Source of the DNA: Acorus gramineus
Lineage: Eukaryota > Streptophyta > Magnoliopsida > Acorales > Acoraceae
Reading direction: 5' to 3'
Assembly: GCA_030737835.1 (NCBI GenBank)
Contig: CM060855.1
Location: forward strand, 4,520,478 to 4,584,477
DNA length: 64,000 nt
The translations under genes and the position numbers were made by a program. Of this stretch, positions 9,494 through 59,942 are shown one piece after another. Numbering within the stretch: the stretch's first letter is position 1; every line of letters begins with the position of its first letter. Below the pieces are notes generated by a model. It saw only the letters and a list, made by a program, of their open reading frames with translations, had not been told where the DNA came from and ran no database searches.

Positions 9494-9525
<32 letters not shown>

Positions 9526-11366: not shown

Positions 11367-11978
11367 GTCACCAAGCAGCGACACGTTTCAACTTGCAAAG
11401 CACGACGACTCTATGGAAGGCTTTATAACCAAAAGAGATCTGAACCCTTTTGGTATGTGTATTTAGTGTCTTTTTGTTAAACGAACTTTCCTTAGCTGGT
11501 AAGCACTACCCACCTCTGGACGTGCGCACAGGACATCTATTTCATGGGAAAAAAACAAAAGAAAAAGTGCAACGTATATCAATTTAGATGCACCTATATC
11601 ACTGAAAGTTCTCTTATAGAGGTTTTTTTGTCTCACAGCTAGTGTATCTATTAGGTTTATTGTTAGGTCTAAGCCACTGTGATGAAAATTGTCTGTCCTC
11701 TTTTGGTGTATTGTTGTGTTGTTTCCTACCAAAATTTAATCTGTATCAGTTAAACCACTTGATGTAACTCATACATCAAGGAAGCAAAACCTGATAGTCA
11801 TAAATATGTGTATGAGAGGTCTCTATTCATTGGGGGATAAAACACTACTCTCTCATGTCATTGTTGATATGCTTTGACTTCTCTTTGTATATGTTTATGT
11901 GGGCAGGCATGCATGCAGTCTCTCACTTTGATTCTATGGATTGATTTGATGATCTGATAAGGAAATTTGTGTTGCCAC

Positions 11979-12695: not shown

Positions 12696-12874
12696 GCCAC
12701 CCATCACTAAAATGCTGGACATCAATCACATCATGTGCTGGAGGGGAACTTGCAAACAAGGTTTTATCTCGTGTAAGAAACAGAACCTTGTGTCAGTTGT
12801 GTGCACCAGTGAAAAGATGTATACAAACTCACTTTCAACTATAATATTATCACTTTTACTTTTCATAACTAAAA

Positions 12875-16232: not shown

Positions 16233-16680
16233 AATTAATATGGACTGCCCATCCATTGAGGAGTTATGGCAAGAGGGCAAAAGTTTTTCCGCGCATCAGG
16301 ACAAGAGTGCTGGAGCTAAGATATCATAGATCTTGATCCTTGCGGTGACTTGGGCAATTTGGCTCGCTCGCAATCACTTGGTTTTTAGAGGCACTCTAGT
16401 ATATGAGAAGAACATTTGGGAATTGATTGAGAACTTTATTAAAGTGTGGGGTCTTTCTTGCATGTGCGAAGAGGATATCTTTTATTATGGAGAGATTATA
16501 TGTTGAGGAATAGTTTGGATTGAGTTTTTTTTTTTTTCTTTTACCAAAAGATAGAGTAGACACATTCTCTACTCTTATTCCTTTGGTGGATCTTTTGTAT
16601 TTATGTTCTTTTACTTAGGCGCCCCTTTCTTTGAAATATAATTAAGGGTGTATGCCTACTATTTCATAAAAAAAATAAAA
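16233..16680 (+). mobile_element. 3' fragment of a LINE
   Basis: The plus strand encodes CPSIEELWQEGKSF and, after a stop, 'TWAIWLARNHLVFRG' and 'KNIWELIENFIKVWGL', the tail of a plant L1-type ORF2 (compare 'ALWAIWL' in the LINE at 2021-4306). It ends with 'ttttaccaaaagatagag' and, after 'ataattaagggtgtatgcctactatttca', an A-rich tail. It contains stop codons and is dead. Copy 2 equivalent begins near 58620. Confidence 0.75.
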
Positions 16681-16857
16681 ATATTAATATGATATATAAA
16701 AAAAAATAACTTATCATATATGTTATTGTTACAATTGATAAAAATATTTAAATATGTATTAAATAAAATAATTCTTATTTAATTATAAACTAAAAAAATC
16801 AAAGGGTCACAATTCATGATTTTTAATAATTAAAAATAAAAAAAAAACTAAAACAAA

Positions 16858-16943: not shown

Positions 16944-19955
<3,012 letters not shown>

Positions 19956-21209: not shown

Positions 21210-24200
21210 TCAGTTCATTTTTGGTCTCCCCATCTCCCATGCATTCAACTCAGTCACCTTCACATCCTCCAATCCATTGTTAAACACAAACAGATGCGCC
21301 TTCTCTCCCACCGCCTTCAACGGGTAGATCCTCGACGTCATGCAGGTCTTCCCTCCCCCGCCGAAGCTCTCCACCACCGAATGATCAATCTGCACAATTG
21401 CAGTATATGAAATCTCTAATAGAAAAACACTAGTGAGTACAAGAACATAATGCATTCCAAGTATACACTACAAAATGACTCAAAAGTGTGAACATACCAG
21501 TGTTCTCAAAGAGATCTTCCCTTCCTTCTTGATGTCCACATCCACAAATCCTCCATAGTATGGTATGTACATTTCATTTCTCAATGAAGACCTGTTACAA
21601 ATTTCATAATCAAAATATAGTACCACCCACCATGAAATATCAATTGACTTTTTTTCTTTTTCAAGTGACTTAAAGAGACTATATACTAGACCTGCTGGGG
21701 TCATGGCACATGAGCACAACATGCTTGTCTACAGCCCTGAAGACCTGGAAGGACACAGCAGTTCCCTCGTCCATCTTCTCCGACGACAGCACGAACAATC
21801 CGAATGGTCCGACGCCGCTCGTCATGTTGGCCCTCTTCTTGCTACAGAGGATCTGCGGGTCCGTCCACAGTGGGTCGAACGGCTCGGCGTCTTCTAGGCT
21901 TGGAAGATCAAACGTCACCTCTACGTCAGCCTGTCATGGTAGCGTTTGCAAAGATTTTTGAAAAATAAGATTTTAAATAAAATAATTTAATTAAACTCGA
22001 TTACTAGAAAACACGTATTTTATATGTTTTTTAAAAGGCAACATTTTTGTACTAAAAGCTAGCTGTAAGTAATTTTTTTAATTAAGTATGCTTTCTAGGA
22101 GACATTTGGTAACATGTTTAATCTTTTAACTTTATTAAAAAGCAGAAGCGCTTTATAAAGTGTTTCCAAATACAAAAAGCAGCTTTTAGCTTTTTATGGA
22201 ATCGATGAATATAAGCTGTTTTTGAAAATTGATTCCAGAGGAACACAGACCTGGGAAGTGAGTATCCCTTTCACTTCGAACATGCCGCCCCTCTTGAGCA
22301 CCATGTTGTCCAGACCAACTTGCTTTCCCCGTAGGGTCTCCAGCTCCTTGATCGGCCACTGCACCAGCTGCCGCCCGCTCGTGTCGAGCCACAAAGACCT
22401 TGGAATCGTCTATTGATTAAAACAAATCCAACAATGAATCACACACATGATAATCCAAATAACATCAATGTTCATTAGTCCCCAATTAGGAACTGAGACA
22501 CGTGTTAGCCATGTGTCACAGTGTCAGTCTCTCATTAAAAAATGCAAACCTGAATTCCAGCCCAGCCCTTCGCGACATCATCAACGACGCTATCAGACTC
22601 ATTGGACCAGCCCCAGAGGATCCTCCGGTGCTTCGCCGGGTCGTAGAACGTCTTCGACGCGTAGAAGTTCCCGTAATCATACCTAAGCCCCGTGTGATCG
22701 TCGGCCGAGGTATTGTCCGGTACGTATTTTTCCAACTCAGTAAGGTATCTCCCCACCGTATAATACTCGTATCGCGTCACGTCGAGGCTGACTTTGAGCA
22801 CGTGCTTCAGGCCCGGCCCATTCGCTGATGTGTCCAGCCCATTCTGGCCCTGTAGGGAGACTGGGAAGAAGTCTGGGCATTCCCACATCCCTGTTGTGGC
22901 TGATGAGTGCAATGGGTGAGCAGTCTTGACCCACCTCTTGAAATCCTTGCTCCTGTAGAGGTATGCCATCCCCCGGTCACCCCTCCGAGACCCGACCACC
23001 ACCCTCCAGTATCTGTCCTTGGGGTTGTACCTGTTTGGGGTGGAACATAAGCAGTGAATAGAGAGGAATACATGAGAATAACAAAAAAAAAAAAAATTAA
23101 TTGTTTGATTTGCTAAAATAAACCTTGATAGCTATGCTTTTAATAAGTTAGTATAAAGTCTGATAACTATTCTAATGAAGTGTTTTAGATGTTTGTTTAA
23201 TAATTAGCTTTTCCTCAAAAGATGAGTTTAAAAATGAGTTTGCAGGAAATTCTCTCTCCACATATTATGAAAAAGATAACTTTTGGTCACTTAAAGTTTA
23301 TTTTCTGTTTGAAAACGGGTCTGAAAAAATCATATCATATCATTTAAATTTTTCTGTGTTATTTTTTTTTATAAAAAATTATCTCACCCAACACTCACAC
23401 ACATTCCAAAAAATGTACATCTATCATATCACATACACATCTTAAACTTATTCTAAAAACAAACCATTTAAGCAAGAGTATATTTATTATTTAAAAAGTC
23501 ATAAACTTTTATTTATTACCTATCATTACTTTATCCAAAGTGAATGAAACAATAAAAAAATCAGTTTTATGTTTTCCAATTCAACGAGAATAATAAAAAA
23601 GGCAATCAAACAAAAATTTGCTTATTCTGCATGAATTGTTATTTATTTTGATATAACTATGTAGGGATGAATAATCCTACGTCATACCTCAAACGGTGGG
23701 TTCAGGGTCCAATATTTAGATGTGGATATGTTACACAGATGACATCATTTTGTTATTTCTCCCAGGCAATTCAATTTTATTTTCACTTCAAATCTCAAAA
23801 TAATGTCACACTTTTCATATGTAAAATGTTTATGTAGCAATCAATGAAGATGTGATATGTGATATCATTTTTGTAGTTTAGTCCACGTCATACTTTAATT
23901 CTAACACATGAAAACATTGATCAAATCCTAAGATTTGTTTATAACAAGTTGTTAGAATGTCACATATAAAACTTTCATGTAATGGTGACTTACTTATGTA
24001 CTTTTCTTTAAAAAATTTCACTTTCATCACTCAAACGAGATCCTACGACGTCAAATATCAATTTCTTCTCCGACAATCAAACAATCAATCAATTCTTAAC
24101 AAGTGATATCATTTCATTTTTATAAAACATAATGTCACATATCATGTGATGATGATGAAATTAATTACCATGCCGTGGTGGGATCACGAAAGGCGGAGGC

Positions 24201-25317
24201 ATTGACACCGTTGGTGTTGATGACCGGGTTGTAGTCTGGTTTGACCCACTCGATGAGGTACGGGTCCGAGAGGTTCTTAGGGTATGCGACGTTCTGGATT
24301 TGGTCGGTCTGGGCGTCGATCCCGGTGTAGAGGATAGCAGGGGTGCCATCATGGAGGATCGTGGCAGACCCAGACCAGCACCCGTTGACGTCGAAGGGCT
24401 TCGACGGGTAGATCGCAGGCTCAACCGGGGTCCAATTGATCAGGTCAGTTGAGACTGAGTGAGCCCAGACTATGTTGCCCCAAACAGACCCATAGGGGTT
24501 GTATTGATAGAAGAGGTGGTAGATGCCTTTGTAATACATTGGTCCTGTGTTGAAAAATTGTGGTTAATTTTTTAAACATTGATTATATTGTATTGTAGAT
24601 TTTTGTCAATTAATGGAAAAGAAAACTTACCATTTGGGTCTGATTAGATTGTGGATTTGTTGAGTGGATTTGAAGGAGCCATCCATGCAAAATAGAAAAA
24701 TATTAGAACAAAAAAATAGTATTTAGTAATGCAAATTTTGATTAAACCATTACTATAAGAAAAATGCTACACCCATTTTGATCAAACATTATATCTATGA
24801 ATATATATATATATATATAATTATGATTTAGGCTGCATGTAAGGAAAACCTTGTAATAATCTATCATCATATTATAAATCTATGTATGAAAATTAAACTT
24901 CTTTTTTTTAATCTATCTTGTATAAACAAAATTAACACATCCGGGACAAAATTATGAATATTTTATGCCATAATGACATTAAATTTTTCCTATGAAAATT
25001 AGATGGACATTGCTATAAAAAGAATGGTTTTTTAGTCTCAATTTTTGTAATGGGATTATACACCTTCATTTAAGAGGTATGTGCATCTGGGAAGAAAAAT
25101 AAAATTAAATCTGATATTGTTTAGAACATTATCAAATTTTTTTTTCTTCCAATTAATTTTATATACTCAATTTAAGGTCTCCCTGTGTGTGTGTGTGTGT
25201 GTAATTTTCTACATTTAACTTAATTCAACACCTATTTTTATTACACAAAAAAAAAACACCTATTTATTGTCCATTATTGGTATAATAGTCTGGACTAAAT
25301 TATTCCTGTGTACCTTC

Positions 25318-25355
<38 letters not shown>

Positions 25356-26751
25356 TGTAAAGGAATTCACTTTAGAATTTTGTCCAAGATACTACCTAAC
25401 TCAGATTCAAGACTGCCCCATTGTACATACCTAACTGATTGTATATTTATAACCCGATTTGTCAGTGCAACATAAACTTATCCAGGATAAATTATTATTA
25501 CAAGGCACATACCTGTATAATTATATTTTCTTATTCTGTCATTATTTTCAAATTCCTTTTTTGTCTAATACATTTATAACTTCCTCTAACTAATTCAAAA
25601 CATAATTGTCTAATACATATGCGCTTTATTATTCTAGTACTATCCGACCTTTATTCTGCACCCCAAACAGGAGGCAAATGGTTAGCTAACAAACTAGAAT
25701 TAAAAGGCAAAATAACAAAAAGTTTTTAAAAGGGTGGAGTTTGTAAACAATAAATTTGTATTTGATGTTATTTGATTTTCGGTTGGTGGTCCAACCAACT
25801 TTATAATTTTCATTTGGCCCCTCTTATCTGAATAAAATGTTGCCTATTTTTTCTTTCCAAAAAAAAAAAAAAGAGTTTTGAAAAACTTTACAAATTTTTT
25901 TTTTATTGATTATGACAACCAAGAAAAATTGGGCGACTTCAGCGATGTAGAGCCGCCAAAGATGACAAATAATTTTCTTTTTTAAAAAAATCCAAAATGG
26001 AGAGTCTCATCCAAAAAAAACACAAAAAAAGAATCCAAACAGATGAGCCAATACAACATGTCAAGTTATCTTTATAAAGAACAACTTGGATCTGAAAATG
26101 CTCTCAACACATGTTCATTCACCCCATTGAAAGTGATGAAACATGTGAACTTCATTCAATAAAAAAATAAAAATATATTTTATATAAATTTAAAAGACAG
26201 ATAATCATCAGAATTAAATGTGTGTGGATAATGTGACCTACTTTCACATGGTCCTTAATTGTCCAATGCGATCAAAGAATTATTATAATATGGGTTATCC
26301 ATCTGTGCAAAAAAAATCCATTTTAAGAAACTTTAAAATCCATTTATTGACACATTGATGAGGATAAATCATAAATGGATGGTTTTTAATGGCAAAGATT
26401 TAAATCGATTTGGAATAAAAATAATTATTAAGATATTTAATGCACAGAAGATAAAATCACAAAAACAATCAAAATAAATGAATTCTATTAAGATCAACAT
26501 ATGTGTAAATTTTTTTTTAAAATCCATAAATTAAAAAATTAAAAAAAATTAAAAAATTAAAAAAAAAACATACCATTGATCCAGTGTCTAGGGGGTTGGA
26601 AATGATAGGCAGTTCTATAGAGGTTGCTGATCAAAGGAGGAGCTTGGTGGGATTTGAGATGAACATGGACCTTGTGAGATGCCTCAACCTTCAATCCACA
26701 CATAAAAAACAAGAAGAACAACAACACCCATTGAAGGTTTTTGTTGGCCAT
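21210..26751 (-). CDS. CWINV: Cell-wall (acid) invertase, GH32 beta-fructofuranosidase (8 exons, 571 aa)
   Basis: Exons in reading order: 26751-26574, 24639-24631 (9 nt), 24544-24169, 23030-22550, 22409-22251, 21930-21692, 21591-21498, 21389-21210. It cleaves apoplastic sucrose to glucose and fructose and so sets sink strength. Residues 1-24 are a signal peptide (hydrophobic core [13 protein letters not shown]). NDPNG at 59-63 carries the nucleophile Asp60, FRDP at 181-184 the transition-state Asp183, and WECPD at 237-241 the acid/base Glu238. Pro240 in that motif marks the cell-wall rather than the vacuolar class. The 9-nt exon coding DPN is the classic plant invertase mini-exon. I start at the ATG at 26751, since the frame upstream has only a TTG. 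No damage is visible. Introns 1 (1.9 kb) and 3 (1.1 kb) are long and AT-rich. Confidence 0.96.
22075..22200. repeat. Small foldback/MITE-like segment in an invertase intron
   Basis: 'ctaggagacatttggtaac' on the left and 'gtgtttccaaatac' with 'aaaaagcagc' on the right form a weak inverted arrangement around 'aaaaagcagaagcgctt', a style seen in small plant MITEs. Borders are uncertain. Confidence 0.3.
25183..25354. repeat. Microsatellites in invertase intron 1: (GT)n and (AAT)n
   Basis: A GT run occupies about 25184-25201 and an AAT/TAA run of roughly 12 repeats 25318-25354. An AT run is nearby at about 24800-24818. All are in the first intron and likely to vary in length between individuals. 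Confidence 0.9.
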
Positions 26752-34075: not shown

Positions 34076-34698
34076 TAGGTCTATCAATAGGTCGGGTCAA
34101 GATGGATATGGACCCAACCTGTTTGGATTGTTAAATTCTTTGGGTTGGGTCGGGGTGGACCGGGATCTGACCCATTTTGATTGTCAGGTCCTTCGTGTCA
34201 AGCACTTTACACTTTTTATAAGATCTTGATCGGTCTGGGTCGACCCATTGATATGCCTAAGTTGTTCCAGAAAAGACCGGATTTGGAGAGGTCGAGGGAT
34301 GTAAATGGAAATAACATATATATGCCTAGACCCATTGACAGACATATGTCAAACCATTTAAATAAATTAGCATAAAGACATAAATATTAGATCTACTAAA
34401 GTCTTACAAACTGCAACACCCAAAATAAATCATGTAACAAATCAACCAAATTATATAAATTCCAAAGTTAATTGTTAAAAACACTTAAATACGTTAATTA
34501 AAGTTACACAAATACATTGCATTACTCAGTTTACTATATATTAAACATCAAATTCTTGCAATATGGATTTATATATATAAAAAAAAATCGGGTCTCAAAT
34601 CCATGGGATCGGGTCTGGGAGAACCCAGACCCGACCTGACTTTATGTTCAGGTCCACGGGTCTGGTCCAGATCTTGACCCAACCCATTCATAAGCCTA
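34076..34698. mobile_element. 623-bp hAT-like element with GGGTC-rich inverted ends
   Basis: The left end TAGGTCTATCAATAGGTCGGG is mirrored by the right end (inverse TAGGCTTATGAATGGGTTGGG). Both arms continue with 'gggtc/gaccc' motifs around an AT-rich centre. The build resembles the 11979-12695 element, but the sequence differs. No clear target duplication. Confidence 0.6.
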
Positions 34699-34727
34699 AT
34701 ATGAATGAACCCATTTTTAGGAAGGAA

Positions 34728-36411
34728 AAATTCTATACCCCATGCAAACTGTCCGATATCCATATAACCCCCTACGAACCTATATGTATATAATATCAAA
34801 ATAGGCTATTCTATCAGTCAAAATAACTATTGGGTGATTAACCTTTAACCCCCACATGCAAATTAATTTTTGCCACCATATAAACACAATTGAACTCTTC
34901 CACGATTTTATTTTGACTGCTGTTGCATTGTTTTTTTTACAACCCTTATTCCAGTCTCATATCTTTCCATAAAAATTTAAAGGCGTATACAGTCACATTA
35001 ATAAGGTATATGTTTCGATAATTTTTTTTATATTTTCTATAAATGCATCCATGCAATTTATTGAAATATATATATATTTTTTTATAAAATCATGTACCTC
35101 ATCAGATGAATATGAGATATACTATTTTTAAAAAATTTAAAACACATACAAACCGTAAATAGTGATGGAAATGGGCTTGTAGTAATTTTTTTTTATATCG
35201 GAAGGACTCTTTATGACTGATTTTATGGTCAAGCTGAAAAAGCTATCTTTGCATGTTTGTCCCTAGTCCCACAGAAATTTTTTTTAAATTTCACATAACA
35301 AACAGGAGGTGTAACACAGCGTTAAGACTCGAACCAAGACTCACCCTTAATACAAATAAACTCTGAACCGCTTATACATAATATTATACTTTTTTTTTGT
35401 CATTCCCATATAACAAAATCACATTCACCCTTCTCTCTCTCTCTCTCTCTCTCTTTGTGGCCTGCGTGGGTCTGTGTGATCCAACTGAAAAAAGAAAACC
35501 CAAAAGTCTGATGCCCTTTTCCCCATTGAACCGTTGAAACCAACCTCTCTCAGTTTGATCAAACAATAAAGAAGCAAAGGAAGCTGTAGTGGTGGTGGGT
35601 GGTGTGGGTGCTCATCCACAATGGAAACCCAACAACCAACATTTCCAGGTGGGTAAGTCAGTCCTTAGTGATCATAGCACAACGGTTCAAGGTTTAACAG
35701 TATTATCGATAGATCCTGGGTTTGAGTCTTGACGTTAATTATTCGAAAGAATTTTATGTGGGACCGGAACAAACAGACGGAGGTAACCTTCCCAGCTCGA
35801 CCGTAAAGTCAACTACAGAGGATCCCTCCGATATCAAAAAAAAAAAAAAAAAAAACGAACATCCCCACAACAAGGACTTAAAGGTGCCCCAAAACCACCA
35901 CCACCACAACAAGGCTTCAAAGGTGGATGAGAAGAGAAGAACAGATTGGGTTTTTGTGTTTTTTTACATATATATATTTTTTGGTTCTCTAGTGATCCAT
36001 AGAAGGTGTTTTAGTTGAATGTAATGGCTAATTTGAAGTTTGGAAGGGTTTTGATGTATGGTTGAAGAGGGTTCGTTCAAGAGGAATGGGGATCGCTGAG
36101 TTGATGATGAAGAGATGGTGGAAGGATGTGAGTTTTTGTGTTATGTGTGGAGGGGTTAAATTGTCATATAGAGGGAGGTATTTGAATTATTCTTAAATGG
36201 TAGGGGGTTTGTAGCATATTGAGTTTTCAGCTTGGGTTAAGCTAACTAAGTATTCTAAGAATATTCATAATATGTTAATAGAATTTTAACTCAAGCGTAT
36301 ATTTAGATATACATATGAGTTTATAAGGGATTATATGAACGTCAAGAAAAAACAAGGAGTTATATGAATATTGAACAGTTTACAAAGGGTTATACAGATT
36401 TTTTTCTTTAA
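34728..36411. mobile_element. MULE-type element (~1.7 kb) containing a SINE-like piece
   Basis: The left part 'aaggaaaaattctatacccc', 'gcaaactgtcc', 'tatccatataaccccct' is mirrored at the right end by 'gttatatgaatattgaacagtttacaaagggttatacagattttttt', the same theme as the ends at 12875 and 31446. No exact 9-bp duplication was found, so the borders are approximate. Inside are a copy of the dispersed repeat (34990-35160, inverse of 5060-5240), a CT run (35431-35454) and the SINE-like piece. Confidence 0.55.
35655..35851 (+). mobile_element. SINE-like element
   Basis: 'gtgatcatagcacaacggttcaagg' looks like a box A region and 'gggtttgagtcttgac' a box B of a tRNA-derived SINE. It ends in an A-run (about 35837-35855) after 'gatccctccgatatc'. 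Left border approximate. Confidence 0.5.
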
Positions 36412-36844
36412 ATAAATGTAAAAAAAAAAATTAATAAAGTATATCTCACTTAACAATTTATATATTTTATTAGATTTTTAACGGTCTACAATTTAAACTA
36501 TAAAAATATTGAGTATAACAACACTTTATAAATATACTCCAAAGTACACTGACTACTCTTTATGGCACTACTGCTAAGTTCTAAACGTCTGAAATGACAC
36601 ATTTTATGAACCCAAACCAAATCAAGTGGGCTAGATCTAAACTACTCTCTTCAAATCTGGGCCACTTTTCGAGCTTCCATTATCAACTCCAATACAACCC
36701 AACCCACCCAAAAACCTCACCAAGCCCAGATAACCCCCCAAACTCATCCAAGCCATATATTAGTAAAAACCCAATCCTAAAAAAAAAAAAATATCAAAAC
36801 CTCACTCTTCTCCCACCCCAAACAGACAAAAAACAAAACAAGAG

Positions 36845-37414
36845 ATGGGCAATAGATGGAGCTGGACCTCAGCCATGATAGGGGCAGCAACAGCCACAGC
36901 AGCAACCACTCTCCTCCTCTCCAAACCCAAAGACCCAACCTTCCACCTCATCTCCATCTCCCTCTCCTCCTTCCACCTCTCCCTCCCCGCCCGCCTCGAC
37001 CTCGACCTCCTCCTCACCGTCCACGTCACCAACCCCAACCCCCTCCCCATCTCCTACATTCCCACCACCCTCTCCATCTCCTACCGCGGCTCCCCCCTCG
37101 CCTCCGCCACCGTCTGCGCCGGCTCCCAACCCCCCCAATCCTGCCAAATCCTCCACCTCCCCGCCCGCCTCCACGGGGTCGACCTCGCCCACCACGCCAT
37201 CGACTTCCTGTCCGACGCAGCAAAGCGCGAGGTGGTGTTCGAGGCATCGGTCAACATCGAGGGCTCTGCGGGCTTGCTGTGGTGGTCGCACCGCTTCTGC
37301 GTGCACGTCAACAGTCATGTGGTCATCGATCCCGTGTTCCTCAGTGTCGTCGAGCAGGAGAACCGGTCGGAGATGGAGGTTTCGATGTTACCTGACTTGG
37401 CTGGTGAGTTTTAG
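36845..37414 (+). CDS. LEA-2 / NDR1-HIN1-like protein (189 aa, single exon)
   Basis: Starts MGNRWSWTSAMIG with a short hydrophobic, Ala/Thr-rich segment (about 9-26) that could be a membrane anchor. Then follows a beta-rich LEA-2 (WHy-type) domain: FHLISISLSSFHLSLPARLDLDLLLTVHVTNPNPLPISY, YRGSPLASATV, and later REVVFEASVNIEG and VHVNSHVVIDP. Such proteins are linked to membrane-associated defence or stress roles. The coding start is strikingly C-rich (many CCC, CTC and TCC codons) beside AT-rich flanks. A strong donor-like 'ctggtgagttt' lies five codons before the stop, so a spliced C-terminus is possible; I see no clear next exon before the kinesin gene. The overlapping open frames on both strands come from the C-rich composition. 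Confidence 0.82.
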   Translation: MGNRWSWTSAMIGAATATAATTLLLSKPKDPTFHLISISLSSFHLSLPARLDLDLLLTVHVTNPNPLPISYIPTTLSISYRGSPLASATVCAGSQPPQSCQILHLPARLHGVDLAHHAIDFLSDAAKREVVFEASVNIEGSAGLLWWSHRFCVHVNSHVVIDPVFLSVVEQENRSEMEVSMLPDLAGEF

Positions 37415-43500: not shown

Positions 43501-43834
43501 AATTTCAACCGAAAAGAAAGAAGAAGAAGCTTCGCCGGACCTTGTCAAAGGTGAAGACGCGGTCGATTTGCTTGCCGGCGATGCTCTGGGAGACGGCGAC
43601 CTCTCTCTGGTACTCATTGCAGGTCACCACCTGCGGCGCGTTGTTCCTCAACTCATCCTCATTGAAAGGCCTTCCCTCACAAATAAAAAAACATACAAAA
43701 AACCCCAAATTTAACGTGTTCTAATGTCAACGGATCGAAACGAAAAAAACCAAATCCCTAAATCAGTGGAATCCTCACCTGCAACGCAGAAGGACCTGAA
43801 CGTTCACCGCCTTCTCCGCCTTCTCTCTCGACAT
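37505..43834 (-). CDS. KIN5: Kinesin-5 (BimC/Eg5 class) mitotic motor, 22 exons, 1043 aa
   Basis: Exons, high to low: 43834-43779, 43670-43541, 42800-42642, 42565-42216, 42062-41924, 41785-41688, 41585-41429, 40944-40875, 40749-40673, 40467-40435, 40342-40262, 40190-40079, 39998-39912, 39822-39647, 39539-39378, 39262-39155, 39078-38896, 38786-38422, 38315-38214, 38116-38007, 37961-37777, 37696-37505. Phases agree throughout. The plus-end motor is N-terminal: P-loop GQTGTGKT (97-104), switch I SSRSHS (about 231-236), switch II DLAGSE (264-269), then neck linker and long coiled coils. The tail has a BimC box ([13 protein letters not shown]) with a TP site for cyclin-dependent kinase, and ends [23 protein letters not shown]. 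Kinesin-5 tetramers crosslink and slide spindle and phragmoplast microtubules. Length is normal for plants (about 1040). A 26-base G-run sits beside the exon 16 acceptor. Confidence 0.95.
39271..39296. repeat. 26-base G homopolymer in a kinesin-5 intron
   Basis: On the coding (minus) strand this is C26, ending eight bases before exon 16 ('...cctggaatag' then the exon). It therefore takes the place of the polypyrimidine tract. Such runs are unstable and hard to sequence, so the exact length is uncertain. Confidence 0.9.
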
Positions 43835-44427: not shown

Positions 44428-46143
44428 TCATTTCAGATATGTAGATGAGATCCAGAGTAGCACATAAGTTAACAATGAGGTGGTCACTTCCAGACTCCTT
44501 GGACCGTGGAGCAGAGGCGGAATGACTGACACCATCAAGAAGGTCCCCAGCAGCCAAGATCCAAAGAAAGTCCCTATCCTGCACATCATTTTTTAAAGAA
44601 AATGAGGATTCATGTAATTCAGAAAGGAAACAAGGAATTAAATGGAAATCATGATCACTGTTTGATCTGCAAGCACATGTGAAATTTAAATTTCGCGCAA
44701 AACAAGCGGGTATTCTTAATCTTCAGTTTTTGATTTTGGATTTTTGGCTCTCAAGTGTTCCAAGTCCACTTAACAACTACTTTTATGGAGCTTTTTCCGG
44801 AATTTTGATTGTTTTAATCAATTTAGAGCATAACCTATTTGTTAAAACTGGTTCCAAATGGAGCCAAAGAGAAATGGTTCACATCTCCGTTTCACCGGAA
44901 ATATTATTTGGAGTGCAACGTCAAATTCACTGGTAATCATGATGTGAATCTACTGTTTTGCTATAATGGATGAATTATATGCCTACCAACAGGTACTGGT
45001 TTTGATTTTATTCATACTCTAGGTCAATTTCAAGATGAAATAAAAAAGAAAGAGAGGACGCATACCCATACAAGAAAGCTCGTAATCTGCTCTTAAGTCT
45101 TTGGTAAATGAAATATATTGATGCGATCAAAGAAATGGCCACTTGAAGGGTTGGGCCTTCCTCCGTGGGAAACAGGACAGTGAGAACTCCGAGTGCTATG
45201 AATGGAATGGCTGTCTTGATAATGAATGTTGTCGATGGAGCTTCAAACCTATTTGTGATGGCCTTCACAACGGATGATTGTGTAACATCCCTTACCTTTT
45301 TCTTGATGTTAAGCTTTGGCTTTCTCCTCTCATGAAACCACTGCATTATTATCTTGTCATGTGCCGATTCAATTGCATCCACACTTGGCTTATGCCCAGC
45401 ATATTTGTTTATCAAGTAGTTTCGTGCCGCTTGAATTTCTTCTTCAGAAGCCTCCTTGCTGATGCCAAGTCGTTTATGAGGGTCCTTTACGTTTATCCTA
45501 GGAAAGATAGCTGAAACAATGATCACAGGTTATCAATAATTTCAGACAATAATTAAAAAAACTCGAAAGTATGAAAGTAAGAATGTTGAGTGAGTGTAAA
45601 TGTTTGAGAAAGGTGGGGGAAGGATACACACAATGAACTTTCAACATAACTGCATTTAGGTTAAAGCTCAGCAGATGTTATTACTAACAAAAGAAAGTTT
45701 ACCGGTTGAATCATCAGATGTACCACTGAATGAAGCATTCATTGAACTCTTGACAATGCAAATTTGTCTAAACTGGTATCTCTGCCTCAGAATGGTACGA
45801 TTGCTGCGTCAAGAGACATCATTAGTAGCCAGAAAAAAATAAAGTGTTGCAGGACTCAGGAATGAGAAACTACATTGAAAGTTACCAAGCCATCAAGCAA
45901 TCAGAACTCTGAAGTTAGAAATTTTCAAAGATACCTGTCCATGTGATACATAAGGTTCAGCTTTTCCCAAAAGCCCCCATTGCATGATGGAGATGAAACT
46001 CGTCTGAGTAACGAACTTGAACTTTGCTTTGGTTTCACAAATAAAGGAGGACCAGGGTGACAACAATTCGATCCCAATACTGACATATTGAGGACAGCCA
46101 AAGTAGATGTCGTAACAGTAGTAGACAGTTTGTAAAATAGCAC
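44428..46143 (-). CDS. Chloroplast J-domain-like membrane protein, DUF3353 / CPP1-related (4 exons, ~301 aa)
   Basis: Exons: 46143-45935, 45803-45703, 45510-45066, 44578-44428, phases consistent. Residues 1 to ~95 are Ser/Thr/Val/Leu-rich and low in acids, as in a transit peptide. Next is a degenerate J-like helical segment (DPHKRLGISKEASEEEIQAARNYL... SAHDKIIMQWFHERRK) without the HPD motif. Then come several membrane spans (about FIIKTAIPFIALGVLTVLF, LQVAISLIASIYFIY, and SWLLGTFLMVSVIPPLL with LLTYVLLWISSTYLK in the last exon). This is the DUF3353 pattern, which includes CPP1, a chaperone-like protein for protochlorophyllide oxidoreductase. The exact role of this member is unknown. The start could instead be the Met 19 codons downstream (MSVLGSN, 46086). 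Intron 3 holds an unassigned AT-rich stretch. Confidence 0.88.
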
Positions 46144-46635: not shown

Positions 46636-49095
46636 TCACCAATAATCGCCGCAAGAGCACTCGCCATCACGAAAATGGTGGAACCTCCTCCCATCTCTCA
46701 CAACAATCTCCCTCTCGACCGCCCTTGATATGAACTTGATCGCATTGTGACAATCCCCACAAATTCTCAAGTTTTTCAAAACCCTAACAGTGGCTCCAAC
46801 AGGTAGCTTCAAGAGCCCATACCCAACAGCTAATTTTTCACTATGCACAGACAAAGCGTACTCCTTCAAGTTAGGCTCAAAATTGTGCAAGACATGCTTG
46901 GTATCAGGTACATATCCCAACTTCCTCATTTTCGCACCCAATTGTGCAAGCAAATCATAGACCAGCTGGACTTCGGGGTGAGCTTTATCATCAACAACGA
47001 AGGAGTGAACCTTACCCAAGACCTCAATCCAACTGCAACCTGGTTCCTTCTTCACACCACGCTCTTTCATTGTCCACCGTACCCTCGCTGCATCCTTCCA
47101 CTGCCCTAAATCAGAGTACATGTTTGAAAGTTGCACATATGTTCCATCATTCATTGGTGTCTTCTCAAGGATTTGTTGAGCTGCATGAATCCCAAGTTCC
47201 ATGTGTCCATGGATCCGACAACCAACAAGGATAGCCTCCCACACTGGTGGGCCTGGCTCAAAGGGCATCATTTTAATCATGTGCTCTGCCTCTTTTATTA
47301 GCCCAGCTCGACCCAACAAATCAATAACAAGGGCATAGTGGTCCTCACCAGGCGATATGCCATATATTTGTTCCATTGAATCAAAATACTTGCGCCCTTC
47401 TTCTACTAGACCCGCATGGCTACAAGCCGAAAGGATGGTCAAGAAGGTGAGCCTATCAGGCAGGATATTTTCAGCCAACATTTGTTGGAAGAAAACCAAT
47501 GCCTCGTGGCCATACCCATGTTGTCCAAAGGCAGCAATCATAGCGTTCCAAGACACAGAGTCCACATTGGGCATCGTCAGGAATACACGATGGGCGGCCT
47601 CAACATCCCCACACCTAGCATACATCGTCAAAAGTGCATTACCTGAAGAATTACTTGACTCGAAACCAATCCGTATGACTTGTCCATGAAGTTGCCTACC
47701 GATCCCCAATGCTCCAAGGCTTGAGCATGCTGAGAGCACCCCAGAATAAACAAAGTCACATGGTTCAAGCACATCCTCCTCCAACCTCATCTGATTGAAC
47801 AGCTTTAATGCCTCCTCCGCAAGCCCATTTTGTGTGAACCCTGAGATCATCACTGTCCATGATAGACGATTCCTTCTTGGCATCTTTTCAAAGATCGCCC
47901 GAGCCTCATCTATCAAATTAGAGTCCATATAACCTGACATGATTGCATTCCAAGAAACGACATCCCTCTCCCCCATCTCTTCAAAAACCCGCCTTGCTAA
48001 TTTGACATCACTGCTCTTTGAGTACATCGCGATTAGTGCATTATGGACAGGCAAATAAGCTTTACTGTCAATATCTGGTGCATTGCGTAACAAATAAGCA
48101 TGCATCTGCTTGCCATGACCAAAAAGCCCGGCATCCACACAACCACTGATCATATTCGTGTACGTAAACTCATCAAGGGTGATCTTATTATTGACCATCT
48201 GTCTAAATATTGCCAGTGCCTCCAAAGTAAGCCCATGGTGTAAATACCCTGATATCATTGCATTCCACAAAACACAAATCTTCTTTCCCTTTGACCCCTC
48301 AAAGAGCTCATGTGCCGCCTCAAGATTGCCACATCTGATATAGCCAAAAATCATGGTAGTCCATGTGAGCTCATCCCTCTCCATCATTCTATCGAAGACA
48401 TCACGAGCAAAGCCTAGTGCAAGCTTCGATGCACATCTTGAATAAAGGCAAACAAGGGCATTGGAGACAGGGAGAAAAGACTCTGTTCCCGATTTAACAA
48501 CAGCACAATGGATCTGAAAACATTGTCGCTCATCCTCAGCAGGCCAAGCGCTGAGGAGACTCGAGAACGTATAATTATCTGGGAGAAATCGGTGCTTTCT
48601 CATATCACGAAAGAGATTAATGGCAGAATAACCATTACCATTGCGCGCATAACCAGAAATCATGGCATTGTATGATATAGTATCGCGCATGCTTAATGGC
48701 GTCCCATTAAATGTCTCTCTAGCGAGCTTCATGTCACCAATATCAGAGTATGCCACAATCAATGTGGTCCTCGCAAGAATGTCAGGATGAGAAGCTGAGT
48801 CAAATAAGCGACGAGCAGAAATAAGATCACCATGTTTGCAATAGATTCCTATTAGGCGATTGAGAATGAGGGACCGTGGCTTGAACCCTGAGGTTATCAT
48901 GTGAGCATGGAGGACGCGATGGTGGAGGTGAACGAAAGAGGAGTGACGAGATAAGCCACGAGATTGGGCCTGTTGGAAGCAAAGATGGAGTTGATTGGCA
49001 TAGCTGTTGACAATATCTCGAACATCTAATCGTTGACAAAGGGTCTCCGGGATAGATGCGACATATGATGAAGATAAGGCGTTCATCATGTCCAA
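46636..49095 (-). CDS. PLS-class PPR protein with E, E+ and DYW domains (819 aa, intronless), At1g25360-like
   Basis: One uninterrupted frame. After ~65 N-terminal residues (possible organelle targeting) there are about fifteen P/L/S repeats, e.g. RTTLIVAYSDIGDMKLARETF, SYNAMISGYARNGNGYSAINLF and VSWNAMIAAFGQHGYGHEALVFF. Then come the E/E+ region with the PG box KKEPGCSWIE and a full DYW deaminase domain: HSEK (about 751-754, the HxE zinc and catalytic motif), CGDCH (about 779-783) and the terminal CSCGDYW. DYW proteins bind specific organelle transcripts and convert C to U. The sequence follows Arabidopsis At1g25360, which I recall as the mitochondrial editing factor OTP90, closely along its length. 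All catalytic residues are present. The long gap to the probable promoter (about 50300) suggests 5'-leader introns. The second OR copy starts 1.3 kb upstream on the other strand. Confidence 0.95.
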   Translation of the reverse strand: MDMMNALSSSYVASIPETLCQRLDVRDIVNSYANQLHLCFQQAQSRGLSRHSSFVHLHHRVLHAHMITSGFKPRSLILNRLIGIYCKHGDLISARRLFDSASHPDILARTTLIVAYSDIGDMKLARETFNGTPLSMRDTISYNAMISGYARNGNGYSAINLFRDMRKHRFLPDNYTFSSLLSAWPAEDERQCFQIHCAVVKSGTESFLPVSNALVCLYSRCASKLALGFARDVFDRMMERDELTWTTMIFGYIRCGNLEAAHELFEGSKGKKICVLWNAMISGYLHHGLTLEALAIFRQMVNNKITLDEFTYTNMISGCVDAGLFGHGKQMHAYLLRNAPDIDSKAYLPVHNALIAMYSKSSDVKLARRVFEEMGERDVVSWNAIMSGYMDSNLIDEARAIFEKMPRRNRLSWTVMISGFTQNGLAEEALKLFNQMRLEEDVLEPCDFVYSGVLSACSSLGALGIGRQLHGQVIRIGFESSNSSGNALLTMYARCGDVEAAHRVFLTMPNVDSVSWNAMIAAFGQHGYGHEALVFFQQMLAENILPDRLTFLTILSACSHAGLVEEGRKYFDSMEQIYGISPGEDHYALVIDLLGRAGLIKEAEHMIKMMPFEPGPPVWEAILVGCRIHGHMELGIHAAQQILEKTPMNDGTYVQLSNMYSDLGQWKDAARVRWTMKERGVKKEPGCSWIEVLGKVHSFVVDDKAHPEVQLVYDLLAQLGAKMRKLGYVPDTKHVLHNFEPNLKEYALSVHSEKLAVGYGLLKLPVGATVRVLKNLRICGDCHNAIKFISRAVEREIVVRDGRRFHHFRDGECSCGDYW

Positions 49096-50383
49096 AATGA
49101 ATCATGATTCCTCAACACACCAAATAGATCATCCTAGCTTCATCTGACAGGAAAAAATGAAGCAACTAAGCTGAGCACACTAGTGATTAATCTTGGAAAG
49201 AAGAAGATTCAAAAGGCAATAGTAAATCAAAATAACACGATGAGCTTCACAGATTATAGGTCTAAGTGGGATGATGTGCAGAAAGTATTGTACAAATAAA
49301 AGAAATTGAAAAACTCATGAGGCACCTTCCAAAAAGGACAGCTTAAAGTTTCAAAACTGAGCGAACTAAATCGAAAGCCAAGATGCACTCCATTTAGGAA
49401 ATCTAAGAACAACTATTGCATGACATGGAGAGGGATAGGGTCCTAGATTCCAAAAAGGGAACGGGGGAATTTCACTTGGAAAGGGAACAAGGAAGGAAAT
49501 ATACAGAGACATGAAGTTAAAGAAACCAGAATGTAAACCTGGATTTGTAAACCAAACATGAATACCTCATACACTATGTCCCATTTAGAGCATGGTAGTT
49601 CAAAAATACAACAAATATATAACCAATATGAGTAAACTCAAGCAAAATAACAAAAAAAAAAAAACATAAATCCACAAAATACTTAAACTCCATGAAACAT
49701 TAAACCCATTTAGAAAATGTTATTTACAAGAAAAAAAAATTCATAAAACAGGACTCTGCTGATTCTCTTTTAGAAACCCTAATTCCGGCCAAATTAAAGA
49801 ACGCAACTTTAAAAAGCTTCAGACCATTAAATCAAGGAACGAAAAAGAGAGAAGCCTCACCTTAAAAGCAGTGGTTTTTGAGGCCGTAAGAGAGATGAAG
49901 CAGGATAACGAAACCCTAATTTCAGAACAGAAAAGCAGCCATTAGAGGAAAACTAAACAACATACAGACAAGAAAAAACAGCATTAACAGTTCCCGAATG
50001 ATCCAAATCTCCAGACGCTCTCCCTCTTCGTCAAATTTTTTTTTATTTTTCAATTCATTCCCTGAAAGAAAAAAAAAAAAACACCACAAACAACAACAAC
50101 AGACGAAGAAAAAGAAAAAAAAAAAAAAGAGATAAAGAGAGAGAGAGAGAGAGAGGAAGATTTGGGAGAAAAAAAAAAGCTATTGAACTAAAGAGAAGAA
50201 GATTTGATCGTCCCCTTCTAGGGTTTTTTTTTTTTTTTTTTCTCTCCCTTCGATTCGCGCTTTCGAGAGCGATACGAGTGTCCCTCATTAATTGATAACT
50301 TACATTGCTTCGTGGGCCATTTAAACGGGTCAAATTTCATCATATCTGGATCCGATTATTCACACGGAGTAACGCCCCTTCAT
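49096..50383 (-). promoter_or_regulatory. Upstream region of the PPR gene, ending at the duplication junction
   Basis: No coding gene. On the plus strand it has 'agaaaccctaattcc' (about 49775) and 'gaaaccctaattt' (about 49910), a GA run (50138-50155), a 20-base T-run (about 50222-50242) and TGGGCC (about 50312), a site II motif. These suggest the PPR leader and promoter lie at 49.8-50.35 kb. The region stops abruptly at 50383/50384, where sequence matching OR intron 1 begins. Confidence 0.5.
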
Positions 50384-52013
50384 AGCGAGACCCGTTTCGA
50401 CCGTAACTTCAAAATTTGTGTTTTCTAAAGCACAATCGATTGTTTGTCGCGTTTGAATGAGACACATGTCTTCTTCGACTTCGAATCATGTTATTTCACA
50501 AGAAAAAATGAATCTTTATTGTGTTTGAATGAGACCCTATTCAATTGCCCTTTAAATTCTGTGTTTTCTAGACAAAAGCATTTTTTTTTTTTTGTATGAA
50601 TGAGATCCGTTTCAATTTTGGGACTAATTCTATGTTTTATAGAAGCATGGTTTGATATTGAGATTTTGGACTTGTTTGATGTTGTGTATAAATGAGACCC
50701 ATTTCTGTTTTAATATCAAATTCTGTGTTTTTTAAAATTTATTTTTGTTGTGTTTTAAGATTGAGGTTTGCTTGTTTGATGTAATGTAAAAAATAATTCT
50801 AATTTTATTGCAATTTCAATTGTGGGTCAGTTTTTGCATCATAGAAGGACCAGAGACCGTTCAAGATTTCATGCAAATGCAGCTCCAAGAGATCCAAGAC
50901 AACATCAAGAGCCGAAGAAACAAGATTTTTCTTCTCATGGAGGAGGTGATTCTCATTAAAGGCTTCTATTATAAAGTTTTTAACTTTTTTGTATTGGTTT
51001 GTCAATTTAGAATCAAATTTGATGTAGGTTAGGAGATTGCGAGTGCAACAACGCATAAAATGTTCTATTGGTGAGGATGGTGAGGAGGAAAGCGAAATGC
51101 CCGACATTCCTTCGACAATCCCATTCCTCCCAAACATGGTAATTATTTGAATTAATTTGGTCCTTCGTGTTTAGTTTTGTTTCATCTTAATGAAGCTGCC
51201 TGCTCTTGATTGTTGAAACAGACACAGAAGACTTTGAAGCAATTATATCTTACATGCTTTTCATTAATATCTGGGGTGATTGTCTTTGGAGGCCTACTTG
51301 CACCAATTGTAAGTTGATTTTTGTGCTTTCTCTGAACCTTAATTTTATGTTGTACACAAAAAAGGGGATTGTGAAGGACTAATCCAAATGCTGCCATCAC
51401 TTTATTCTTTTTCATCTGTGTCTTTTTATTTATCAAAATCGTATAGGATGTGTAATATAGGAACTTAGGCATGTTTAGCATGCAGTGCTACATATGTTGC
51501 AATGACAGAATCTTGCACATGCCATTATTAGATAATATGTACTTTATAAAGTTTTCATAGAATCATTAAATTGTAAAATCAGGGACTTTATGGTGTAGAC
51601 ATTGGGTGAGTTTTATTTCCGGAAACTGATCTAAATGTACACATGAAAGAAAGAAAAACATGAAATGTACGCTTGGGTGAACTTTCCATATTCCATTTAA
51701 GTTCCATATATAATTACAAAGTTAGTGTATGACAAATATTCGGCACAATTTATGTTTGGCAAAGTAAGCGTGTTTTCATAAATCATACGGGATAAGTATG
51801 ATTGAAGTATGGAAATAATTAAACTGTTTTTAGGTTTTTACCAATTTTAAGTATCAGAAATGCATGCAAATTTTTTATGTTGGGTGTGAAGGCGGTGATG
51901 ACAATTAGGGCTAGTTTTTTAATGATGAAGAATGTGGTAGACTATCCAAATTAAATGGATGCACAATTCGACGAGTTCAGTCAATAGATGTGGAGGTATC
52001 CATTATCCCTTCT

Positions 52014-52310
52014 TTTTTTTTTACTGGAACGGTAGGCTTTGTATTAATAAAAGGCAAAAGCCCAAAATAAAAGTACATAATCTGAAGGAAAAAGCTAAGC
52101 AAAGGAAAGATAAACTCAGACCCCACGATTTAGGCAGCACGAAAAACTAGAGTTCCACTGGTGGAAGAGACGTCTACTTGTAGAATGCTAACAGTTTCCA
52201 TCCCAAGCCCAGACAAGCCCTGGTCTATCCGATCTCCACATTGCCTACCAGCACCCTCATCCATGCTACCCCTCCACAGAACCCACCCCACATTCACCAA
52301 AATTTTGGAA
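52014..52310 (-). mobile_element. LINE 3' fragment, copy 2
   Basis: Equivalent of 8921-9215, with the same T-run and 'actggaacggtaggc' end. Few substitutions. Confidence 0.45.
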
Positions 52311-52543
52311 CATGCGGAAACGTTTGGAGTATTTTCTGACTATGGTTCTATAAATTGCTTGTGTGTTTGCCAGTTGATTAAAATTAGTGCAACACATAAA
52401 AATTCTAAGTTTTCATATACAGAGAAAAGAAAGCTTTAATGGGAATGCACTCATTGAATCCTTATTTCTCCCGTATAAATTATATATATATATATAATAA
52501 TAACCTGAAACAGATGAATGTGGGAACCAAAAAAAAAAAAAAA

Positions 52544-52629
52544 GGATTGCTTCTCGATTTGTGTGTCATCCTTGCACAAGGGCCATGCTAATCTTCTCCG
52601 TATCGTTCCAATTTTATAGGATGTCCCCG
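52544..52629 (-). pseudogene. U6 snRNA pseudogene, copy 2
   Basis: Same U6 core as at 9453-9540 (GATACGGAGAAGATTAGCATG here versus ACAGAG there, so the invariant ACAGAG is also altered), same damaged 5' end, and a T-run after the 3' end. Confidence 0.8.
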
Positions 52630-53563
52630 AATTACACTGATTCAAGGTGCACATCTTTATTTCTCCCTAATAATTAACCAGTTAGCTAATTAGTTGACCA
52701 GATGAGACAAAGGGTTATCTAGTTTAAGAAGAAACTAATGGAATATTATCATATACAATAACGGAGGCCGAAAGGTCTCTTATATAGATACAAGATGTAC
52801 AAAACCTTATAAATAGAAAAAGACCTAAAAGCCCATGAGAAAAATTCGAGTCCCGTGGGCCCAATCGTCGATTCCCCAGCAATAAGCCCAAAAGGCCTAT
52901 TCCACTTAAATAACTCCAATAGTTTATGCATTACCTCTTTCCACTAGAGCATTTTGAACATTCAATTATAATAATTTGTTTGATGCACATGTCATTGACT
53001 TATATTCTTTGGTGGACACATAGTTTCAAGTCGATTTAGATGAGATAAAAAATTGAATAACACTTTGCTTCAGCTGGAGCTTAAACTAGGATTGGGAGGT
53101 ACCTCTTATGAAGATTTCATTCGGAGTCTGCATCTTCCACTGCAATTGAGGTATGCATTACAATATAATAGTATATGTTTTGTGTTTGTCCAATTTAATC
53201 AATGATGTGTGCCGGGAATAAATTTCATTGTGAAATGCCCTGAATTTCAATTGTTTAATGATCCAGTCAGGTAGACCCTATTGTGGCTTCCTTTTCAGGA
53301 GGAGCTGTGGGTGTTATTTCAGCATTGATGTTGGTTGAGGTCAATAATGTCGAGCAACAGGAAAAGAAGAGATGCAAATATTGTAATGGAACTGGTATGT
53401 ATCTGATCACTTCAAGTACTCTTTCATGGTGAACTGAAAATGATATGCAATTAGTACCAATAAACTTTGCATGCAGAGGTCCCCTCTCTTCACTGAGGGG
53501 TCCTGTCCTGGGATCGAGTTTTTCTCCTGCTAATCAGAGTTAACCAGGGAATGAGTTAAAAAG

Positions 53564-53568
<5 letters not shown>

Positions 53569-53594
<26 letters not shown>
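53569..53594. repeat. (AT)n microsatellite expanded in copy 2
   Basis: In OR intron 6 of copy 2 the AT run is about 13 repeats, against a short interrupted 'atacatatatatatt' in copy 1 (about 10479-10492). Confidence 0.85.
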
Positions 53595-53600
<6 letters not shown>

Positions 53601-55071
53601 TCATCTGGATTCCAAATCTGTGTCTCTTATACCTGTTTTGTCAGTATGCGCGTCTATCTACATATTGTTGCAAATATCTAGCATTTGCTGCAGATAAACA
53701 ATAGGAATCTGACTTTTAGCCCCGTTTGGAACCATTTATCAAACTGATTCATCTTTTGCCAAATCAGTTTTTCAGATAAATGGTTCCAAAACGGGTATTT
53801 TTATATTCAGCTTTTGATTGCAAATTTTGATTTTTATGTGTTAAAAAGTCAACAAAACAACTTTTATTGGAAAAACAGGTTGATAGTAACTTTTATGAAA
53901 AAAACGGTTGAGAGCAGCTTCGTATGAAAAAGTTGTTTTTGATTTCCAAACATGACATTAATAAAATGGAGTGCTAGTCAGAAATCTTAGAAACCATTAT
54001 TACTTAGCAGTACATGACATTGTCCAACAATGAATGGTTTCACATTAACAAACCAATTCTTTATGTTAGACTTCTGAAAAATAAGGGAGCACTGGTGACA
54101 TATGTTATCTTTCTGGTTTCTCCACAGGATATCTGGCTTGCGCCCTTTGTTCAGCAAGTGGTGTTTGTTTGAAAATTGAACCATTTTCGATTTCAAGTGC
54201 TACTACTCGTCCCTTGCGCGCACCCACAACTAGAAGGTGCCCAAATTGTTCAGGTGCAGGGAAGGTATGAAAAATCAAATGATTTGCTCCATCATCATAT
54301 AATCAAACAGTACAACCAATCATAAACATTGATTAGTCTATATATTGTATTGATGTGATTCATCTTCCATGGCTTATGTTCTCCAGGTTATGTGCCCCAC
54401 CTGCCTCTGCACTGGAATGGTTATGGCAAGCGAGCACGACCCACGTATTGACCCATTTGATTAAGTCACCAAGCAGCGACACGTTTCAACTTGCAAAGCA
54501 CGACGACTCTATGGAAGGCTTTATAACCAAAAGAGATCTGAACCCTTTTGGTATGTGTATTTAGTGTCTTTTTGTTAAACGAACTTTCCTTAGCCGGTAA
54601 GCACTACCCACCTCTGGACGTGCGCACAGGACATCTATTTCATGGGAAAAAAACAAAAGAAAAAGTGCAACGTATATCAATTTAGATGCACCTATATCAC
54701 TGAAAGTTCTCTTATAGAGGTTTTTTTGTCTCACAGCTAGTGTATCTATTAGGTTTATTGTTAGGTCTAAGCCACTGTGATGAAAATTGTCTGTCCTCTT
54801 TTGGTGTATTGTTGTGTTGTTTCCTACCAAAATTTAATCTGTATCAGTTAAACCACTTGATGTAACTCGTACATCAAGGAAGCAAAACCTGATAGTCATA
54901 AATATGTGTGTGAAGGGTCTCTATTCATTGGGGGATAAAACACTACTCTCTCATGTCATTGTTGATATGATTTGACTTCTCTTTGTATATGTTTATGTGG
55001 GCAGGCATGCATGCAGTCTCTCACTTTGATTCTATGGATTGATTTGATGATCTGATAAGGAAATTTGTGTT

Positions 55072-55076
55072 GCCAC
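55072..55076. other. Empty target site of the copy 1 hAT insertion
   Basis: Copy 2 reads 'tgttGCCACccatcac' without interruption and with a single GCCAC; copy 1 has GCCAC on both sides of 717 extra bases. There is no excision footprint here, so insertion in copy 1 after the duplication is the simpler reading. Confidence 0.9.
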
Positions 55077-58619: not shown

Positions 58620-59060
58620 TATGGACTGCCCATCCATTGAGGAGTTATGGCAAGAAGGCAAAAGTCTTTGCGCGCATCGGGACAAGAGTGCTGGAGCTAA
58701 GATATCATAGATCTTGATCCTTGCGGTGATTTGGGCAATTTGGCTCGCTCCCAATCACTTGGTTTTTAGAGACACTCCAATATATGAGAAGAACATTTGA
58801 GAATTGGTTGAGAACTTCATTAAAGTGTGGGGCCTTTCTTGCATGTGCGAAGAGGATGTCTTTTATGATGGAGAGATTATATGTTGAGGAACAGTTTGTA
58901 TTGAGTTTTTTTTTTTCCTTTTACCAAAAGATAGAGTAGACACCTCATCTACTCTTATTCCTTTGGTGGATCTTTTGTATTGCTCTTTTACTTGGACGCC
59001 CCTTTCTTTGAAATATAATTAAAGGTGTATGCCTACTATTTCATAAAAAAAATAAAAAAT
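58620..59060 (+). mobile_element. LINE 3' fragment, copy 2 of 16233-16680
   Basis: Encodes the same 'CPSIEELWQEGKS' and 'IWAIWLAPNHLVFRDT' tail and ends in the A-rich run near 59045-59060. Confidence 0.7.
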
Positions 59061-59233
59061 TAATATGATATATATATAAAAAAAAACTTATCATATATGT
59101 TATTGTTACAATTGATAAAAATATTTAAATATGTATTAAATAAAATAATTATTATTTAATTATAAACTACAAAAATCAAAGGGTCACAATCCATGATTTT
59201 TAATAATTAAAAATTTAAAAAAACTAAAATAAA

Positions 59234-59942
59234 TGACAGCTGTGGGTAATTTGGCTCGCTCGCAATCACTTAGTTTTTAGAGGCACTCCAATATATGAGA
59301 AGAACATTTGAGAATTGGTTGAGAACTTCATTAAAGTGTGGGGCCTTTCTTGCATGTGCGAAGAGGATGTCTTTTATGATGGAGAGATTATATGTTGAGG
59401 AACAGTTTGTATTGAGTTTTTTTTTTTTACCAAAAGATAGAGTAGACACCTCATCTACTCTTATTCCTTTGGTGGATCTTTTGTATTGCTCTTTTACTTG
59501 GGCACTCCTTTCTTCGAAATATAATTAAGGGTGTATGCTTATTATTTCATAAAAAAAATAAAAATAAAAAATTAATATGATATATATAAAAAAAAAACTT
59601 ATCATATATGTTATTGTTACAATTGATAAAAGGGATTTTTAGTTTTAAGTTCTCACATACCATCATATTTAGGGGTGATTGATCCCTTCATTCTTCGTAT
59701 TTAGATTTTAATACTCAGATTTAAATAATAGTTCCTTTTTACTCCTTGAGAGGGACCTATCCATAAATATTTAATTTACTTTTTAGTCCCTGTGAGGGAC
59801 CTATCCATGAATTAAATATTTAAACATGTATTAAATAAAATAATTCTTATTTAATTATAAACTAAAAAAATCAAAGGGTCACCATTCATTCATGATTTGT
59901 AATAATTATAATTAATTAAAAATTAAAAAAAACTAAAATAAA
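59234..59942. repeat. Copy-2-specific expansion: tRNA stub plus second LINE tail
   Basis: TGACAGCTGTGGG (59234-59246) is the first 13 bases of the tRNA-Leu 3' side. It is joined directly to 'aatttggctcgctcgcaatcac', which repeats the LINE tail from about 58736. The LINE tail and A-rich segment then run again to about 59628. Next come about 180 bases not in copy 1 (with 'gagggacctatccat' twice), then the normal flank of the intact tRNA. It looks like unequal exchange or slippage at a short GGG match. Confidence 0.75.

Follow-up and report, generated by a model that had tools for sequence, protein, structure and literature searches.

The window analysed here is a stretch of 64,000 nucleotides of the Acorus gramineus genome (C9:4520478–4584477 in GCA_030737835.1, an assembly of 398.6 Mb in 137 contigs), and positions are counted from its first nucleotide. 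On the forward strand lies a putative ORANGE-like (OR) gene, named by its sequence, at 7039–11366; the ATG is at 7039 and the stop is near 11366, limits which come from exon translations. Pfam gives no hit on OR above the cut-off, and below it are DnaJ_CXXCXGXG, BSD2_CRD and others. The ubiquitin-eL40 gene (17132–17602, forward strand) contains two exon stretches, the first of them with Pfam ubiquitin; the rest is presumably eL40, named from a motif. It is followed by the exons of a GH32 invertase gene (21213–26682, reverse strand), a LEA_2 gene (36845–37411, forward strand), and a gene with its first coding exon at 43784–43834 on the reverse strand. The Pfam Kinesin motor domain is seen in three exon stretches of this gene, which we take, by its sequence, to be kinesin-5. 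An exon of a CPP1-like gene (45065–45499, reverse strand; Pfam CPP1-like, presumably the newer name of DUF3353) and a PPR-DYW gene (46636–49089, reverse strand; Pfam PPR, E_motif, and DYW_deaminase) come next. Then a segment of 886 bp (49498–50383), here called the filler, separates the PPR-DYW gene from a second OR gene at 50829–54464 on the forward strand (the end is approximate). This OR gene is truncated at the 5' end: it has no exon 1 and begins within intron 1. The window also contains four tRNA-Leu genes, two in each of the two copies described below.

Self-BLAST of the window confirmed that the sequence from 7291 onward is repeated, nearly identical and in the same orientation, from 50384 onward, as the preliminary description had reported. 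The nucleotides just before these starts, 7290 and 50383, do differ (A and T, respectively). The direct match between 7291–11978 and 50384–55076 spans 4,702 columns at 98.9%, and more colinear blocks continue to the window end. In a self-alignment of 264 kb with 0 N (the window, 80 kb upstream, and 120 kb downstream), the copies stay colinear to 49497 and 94044, where the match ends. Copy 1 is 7291–49497 (42,207 bp) and copy 2 is 50384–94044 (43,661 bp; its end is C9:4,614,521, and its first 13,617 bp are inside the window), both on the forward strand. Their main colinear blocks show 92.5–99.8% identity (BLAST, gaps counted), and the lengths of the matches are far beyond chance. The two copies have the same orientation and different flanks, and they are adjacent, with 886 bp between them, as in a direct tandem segmental duplication. 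Beyond the window, the invertase, LEA-2, kinesin, CPP1-like (DUF3353 in the preliminary description), and PPR genes each occur a second time, as had been predicted. The earlier proposal of a tandem duplication of 7291–50383 is right about the duplication and its direct arrangement and wrong about the right end: the unit stops at 49497, and the last 886 bp match another contig, C2. Among matches of at least 300 bp in the 264 kb, there is no third copy of the unit. In a search of its own genome, the CPP1-like gene, the one searched of the seven named protein genes, has two near-identical sites, both in the duplication, and a 41% match on C4.

The OR gene reads on across 7290|7291, and the left edge is therefore ancestral. 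The boundary 94044|94045 is taken as the ancestral edge on the other side, by parsimony. The stretches holding these outer edges, 6300–7400 and 93900–96000, show no BLAST match to each other at E 1e-6, and the only matches of 6300–7400 are to itself and to the beginning of copy 2. Since there is no such match, repeat-mediated recombination (NAHR) is not indicated, and NAHR between repeats is ruled against as the origin of the duplication, as the unit ends are without homologous repeats. End joining had earlier been preferred to recombination between repeats. The lack of homology between the unit ends agrees with this; the simple junction does not stand, as two joins flank an 886-bp templated insert.

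The filler is in inverse orientation relative to the C2 numbering and has no partner in copy 2. It matches C2 twice, at C2:11493136–11493999 (96%) and C2:11229628–11230489 (95%). The limits assigned to its counterparts there are C2:11493139–11493996 and, for the duplicate, C2:11229631–11230486. Compared with the nearer C2 copy, it shows three substitutions in 859 aligned bases (0.35%) and four indel events, one of which is a 28-bp stretch absent from both C2 copies. Compared with the other C2 copy, it shows eight substitutions in 858 bases, five of them inside a GA-rich run. The remaining matches in the genome, C9 itself aside, are weaker: those on C7 and C10 are at 69–74%, and others are short, covering 36–89 query bases. 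Both joins were compared with both parents. At the left join, the trinucleotide GGA (49495–49497, forward strand) is common to the end of copy 1 and the C2 donor, and at the right join (50383|50384) no bases are shared. The ectopic donor is thus identifiable and still in place, as expected for filler DNA. No N is present at the seam, and copy 2 begins within an intron, exactly at the filler end.

The donor on C2 sits between two divergent genes and is contiguous with both. On one side, there is a frame with a SAP domain, and a frame with the RSB_motif lies ~6 kb further on the same strand (Pfam). The two frames probably belong to one gene, which we take to be Acinus-like from the pairing of SAP and RSB motif domains. 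Its ATG (L028:1703) is ~700 bp beyond the left end of the filler. On the other side, a ribosomal L7/L12 protein of 164 aa (Ribosomal_L12) is encoded, with the ATG ~100 bp beyond the right end of the filler; its N-terminal extension suggests an organelle form. The content of the filler is the upstream region between these two genes, and by eye it includes a first exon that is non-coding and has a GT donor pattern at ~49861. The donor locus is itself duplicated (C2:11220001–11239580 and C2:11483539–11503000; L025–L028), in the same orientation and ~263.5 kb apart. This pair covers at least 19.2 kb at 99.1% and runs to the edge of the compared sequence on both sides. A 263-kb tandem duplication on C2 finds no support in two sampled 1.5-kb pairs at that offset, which do not match, and larger indels could hide one; because of these samples the C2 pair may be dispersed. 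One of the samples (L030) matched itself in the genome search, and its last ~830 bases matched a common repeat.

The arrangement is very probably the result of a real and fairly recent direct tandem duplication of 7291–49497, in which 886 bp copied from the C2 locus closed the novel seam. The seam resembles the scar that break repair or template switching would leave after copying an ectopic template, more than it resembles a join between haplotypes made during assembly. Repair with copying from the template on C2 would have sealed the tandem seam. We infer that the filler and the duplication come from one event; which repair pathway acted, which chromatid was the partner, and whether expression is affected are inferred likewise. 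This is a natural large tandem duplication, and how it was closed can be read at base resolution from its seam, namely with a long template from another contig.

An assembly artefact is quite improbable as the alternative. Two haplotypes of one locus would have been placed in tandem, and the seam would be a chimeric read or a bad join. Allelic variation would suit the patchy differences between the copies (1.73%), and the C2 pair could be a retained haplotig in the same assembly. However, the seam is free of N and contains sequence from a third locus, the filler carries 28 bp and three substitutions that the nearer C2 copy does not have, with 3-bp microhomology at one join, and the filler end coincides exactly with the start of copy 2 inside an intron. 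A plain join of haplotypes is unlikely because it would not introduce an altered third-locus sequence with one-sided microhomology.

It is very improbable that a simple end-joining duplication of 7291–50383 took place and that copy 2 later lost its last 886 bp. Copy 2 does begin at 50384, as it would in this case, but the match to C2 extends over all 886 bp between the joins. Because this piece is contiguous at C2 with the two donor genes, it is derived and not native beside PPR. The present seam would result equally from two events, the insertion of a C2 fragment upstream of PPR followed by a tandem duplication breaking exactly at the insert end. Such a history is highly unlikely, being less economical: the second break must hit the insert edge, and copy 2 must lose the insert. 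That the filler is a mobile element insertion has next to no chance: it does have more than one genomic copy, but the near-identical sites are only those of the duplicated C2 locus, its flanks derive from different unit ends, and terminal repeats are absent by eye at the joins.

Copy 1 and copy 2 differ by 713 substitutions in 41,146 aligned bases (1.73%). The divergence is a mosaic of six segments, which from left to right show 0.60, 4.57, 1.20, 2.67, 7.50, and 0.43%, with the lowest values at both ends; a shuffled control for the segmentation gave one segment in five out of five runs. The earlier estimate of about five substitutions in the first 1.1 kb has to be replaced by one substitution and one inserted base in the first 1,000, with 10 substitutions in the next 1,000. 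The suggestion that the event is recent agrees with the low divergence at the ends of the copies. The divergence between the filler and its donor (0.35%, from only three changes, perhaps under constraint) is near the 0.60% and 0.43% of the end segments. The filler serves as a second clock that does not depend on the two copies, and its reading fits the end segments, which are the least diverged. The middle segments are 1.2–7.5% diverged, more than the filler, and this speaks against the duplication with a copied filler as proposed above.

The two most diverged segments show an excess of transitions (ratios 3.47 and 3.84). This excess explains the pattern only in part, because transversions vary too (0.17–1.55% by segment, about a ninefold spread), and allelic exchange or conversion must therefore be added. 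Ectopic conversion behind the 7.5% segment was rejected: with the two C9 copies aside, the query 34496–36535 shows partial repeats at 66–85% and no donor among the best 40 of 5,298 candidates scored. The event is presumably about as old as the end segments indicate, and the middle would carry older allelic differences. These could have been present from the start, if each unit derives from a different homologue, or have entered later, when sequence was exchanged with single-copy chromosomes. A higher rate of change in repeats would add to the divergence of the middle.

All compared coding stretches of OR (five), ubiquitin-eL40 (two), invertase (seven), CPP1-like (one), LEA_2 (one), and PPR (one) are open and free of indels in both copies. 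So are six of the seven kinesin stretches tried; the peptide used for the seventh was not located. The coding comparison covers these named stretches, which are a part of the exons, above all in the kinesin gene. The two copies are identical in the five OR stretches (192 codons) and in the two stretches of ubiquitin-eL40 (69 codons), and PPR shows three nonsynonymous differences and one synonymous difference in 817 codons. Copy 2 contains 1,452 bp (86899–88350) that copy 1 does not have, ~30 bp upstream of the kinesin ATG. This piece holds a repeat of ~270–330 bp seen at many genome sites (a lower bound, with the best 40 of 6,831 candidates scored). Outside the repeat, it has one other match only among the matches listed (95 bases, 76%). 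This lone weak match and a GAG overlap at the copy-1 site disfavour a transposon. The short GAG overlap, observed by eye, favours a deletion in copy 1 but does not prove it.

The Acinus side of the filler faces the copy-1 PPR-DYW gene, which has its ATG at a distance of 408 bp, and the L7/L12 side faces the OR gene of copy 2. Beyond these 408 bp, the upstream region of the copy-1 PPR gene is that of the C2 gene, pointing at PPR. The breakpoint 7291 falls in the first intron of the copy-1 OR gene. It can be speculated that the filler is a working two-way promoter, which would drive the copy-1 PPR gene leftward and transcribe the exon-1-less OR gene rightward, the latter maybe giving an OR without a transit peptide. 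Together with the 1.45 kb absent upstream of the copy-1 kinesin gene, neither copy would then have the full set of intact gene starts, and both might be kept by complementary damage. This joint reading, drawn from the sequence, is doubtful. Rightward, 13 ATGs are present from 50340 to the first in-frame Met of OR exon 2 (50871), with an in-frame stop at 50787, and an unspliced transcript should therefore be translated poorly. Leftward, there are 28 ATGs from 50383 to the PPR ATG, seven of them in the 408 bp native to PPR, and the last of these seven opens a frame of 92 codons overlapping the PPR start. The ATGs on both sides and the stop count against this joint reading. According to a review (PMC12063368), OR occurs both in plastids and in nuclei, and its nuclear signal follows the transit peptide. 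The idea of a nuclear OR form is weakened because a protein starting in exon 2 might also lack the nuclear signal. Should the upstream region carried by the filler be functional, a single repair event would have rewired both genes together.

Tandem duplications with a templated filler form a known class; this one is unusual in that its filler is so long, derives from another contig, and carries gene-start sequence. In maize, filler DNA at double-strand-break repair in p2/p1, bz1, wx, and R-r is reported as 1–131 bp copied from near the break (PMC2686159). As at the Acorus seam, the insert is copied from elsewhere, little or no homology is needed, and chimeric genes are possible, whereas the Acorus filler is 886 bp, comes from another contig, and lies at the seam of a 42-kb tandem duplication. 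Direct tandem duplications in rice are likewise ascribed to repair, as patch-repair, for which Vaughn and Bennetzen 2014 is cited. The longest perfect one reported there is 4.9 kb, in contrast to the Acorus unit of 42 kb with its ectopic insert (PMC7971508). Template insertion in wheat (SD-MMEJ) is similar in short-homology priming, template copying, and joining; the wheat templates seem more often to be in cis, whereas the Acorus donor is on another contig (PMC7156093). Breakpoints of non-co-linear copy-number genes in rice also have microhomology or no homology, which in 14 of 27 cases was interpreted as end joining, but ectopic filler is not described in the main text, where the word "filler" occurs 0 times (PMC4812662). 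A narrow literature search joining bidirectional promoter, templated insertion, double-strand break, and plant returned none, and no claim is made that such a seam is unreported. In chimeric genes of Drosophila yakuba (PMC5460883) and promoter substitution in human cancers (PMC7584658), rearrangement puts new upstream sequence beside a gene, as it does here. Unlike in those cases, the source of the Acorus sequence is a third locus, and the genes on its two sides both start or run on in the direction leading away from it.

Several repeats and indels were also observed in and around the copies. Near the tRNA-Leu genes, copy 2 has a local tandem repeat of ~390 bp (58732–59120 and 59243–59631) with one listed counterpart in copy 1 (16351–16743). 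A piece of 722 bp (11975–12696) is present in copy 1 only. It has GC-rich ends with, by eye, a terminal inverted repeat, AGAGGTGT..., and presumably resembles a non-autonomous hAT-type element. Upstream of the window, a dense repeat cluster spans −72242 to −19137 (C9:4448235–4501340, L005–L011), with units of up to several kb, mostly direct and 75–98% alike. Downstream of the duplication, an inverted repeat is located at 121102–152719 (L018–L021), with arms of ~6–7 kb whose main blocks are 96–98% alike.
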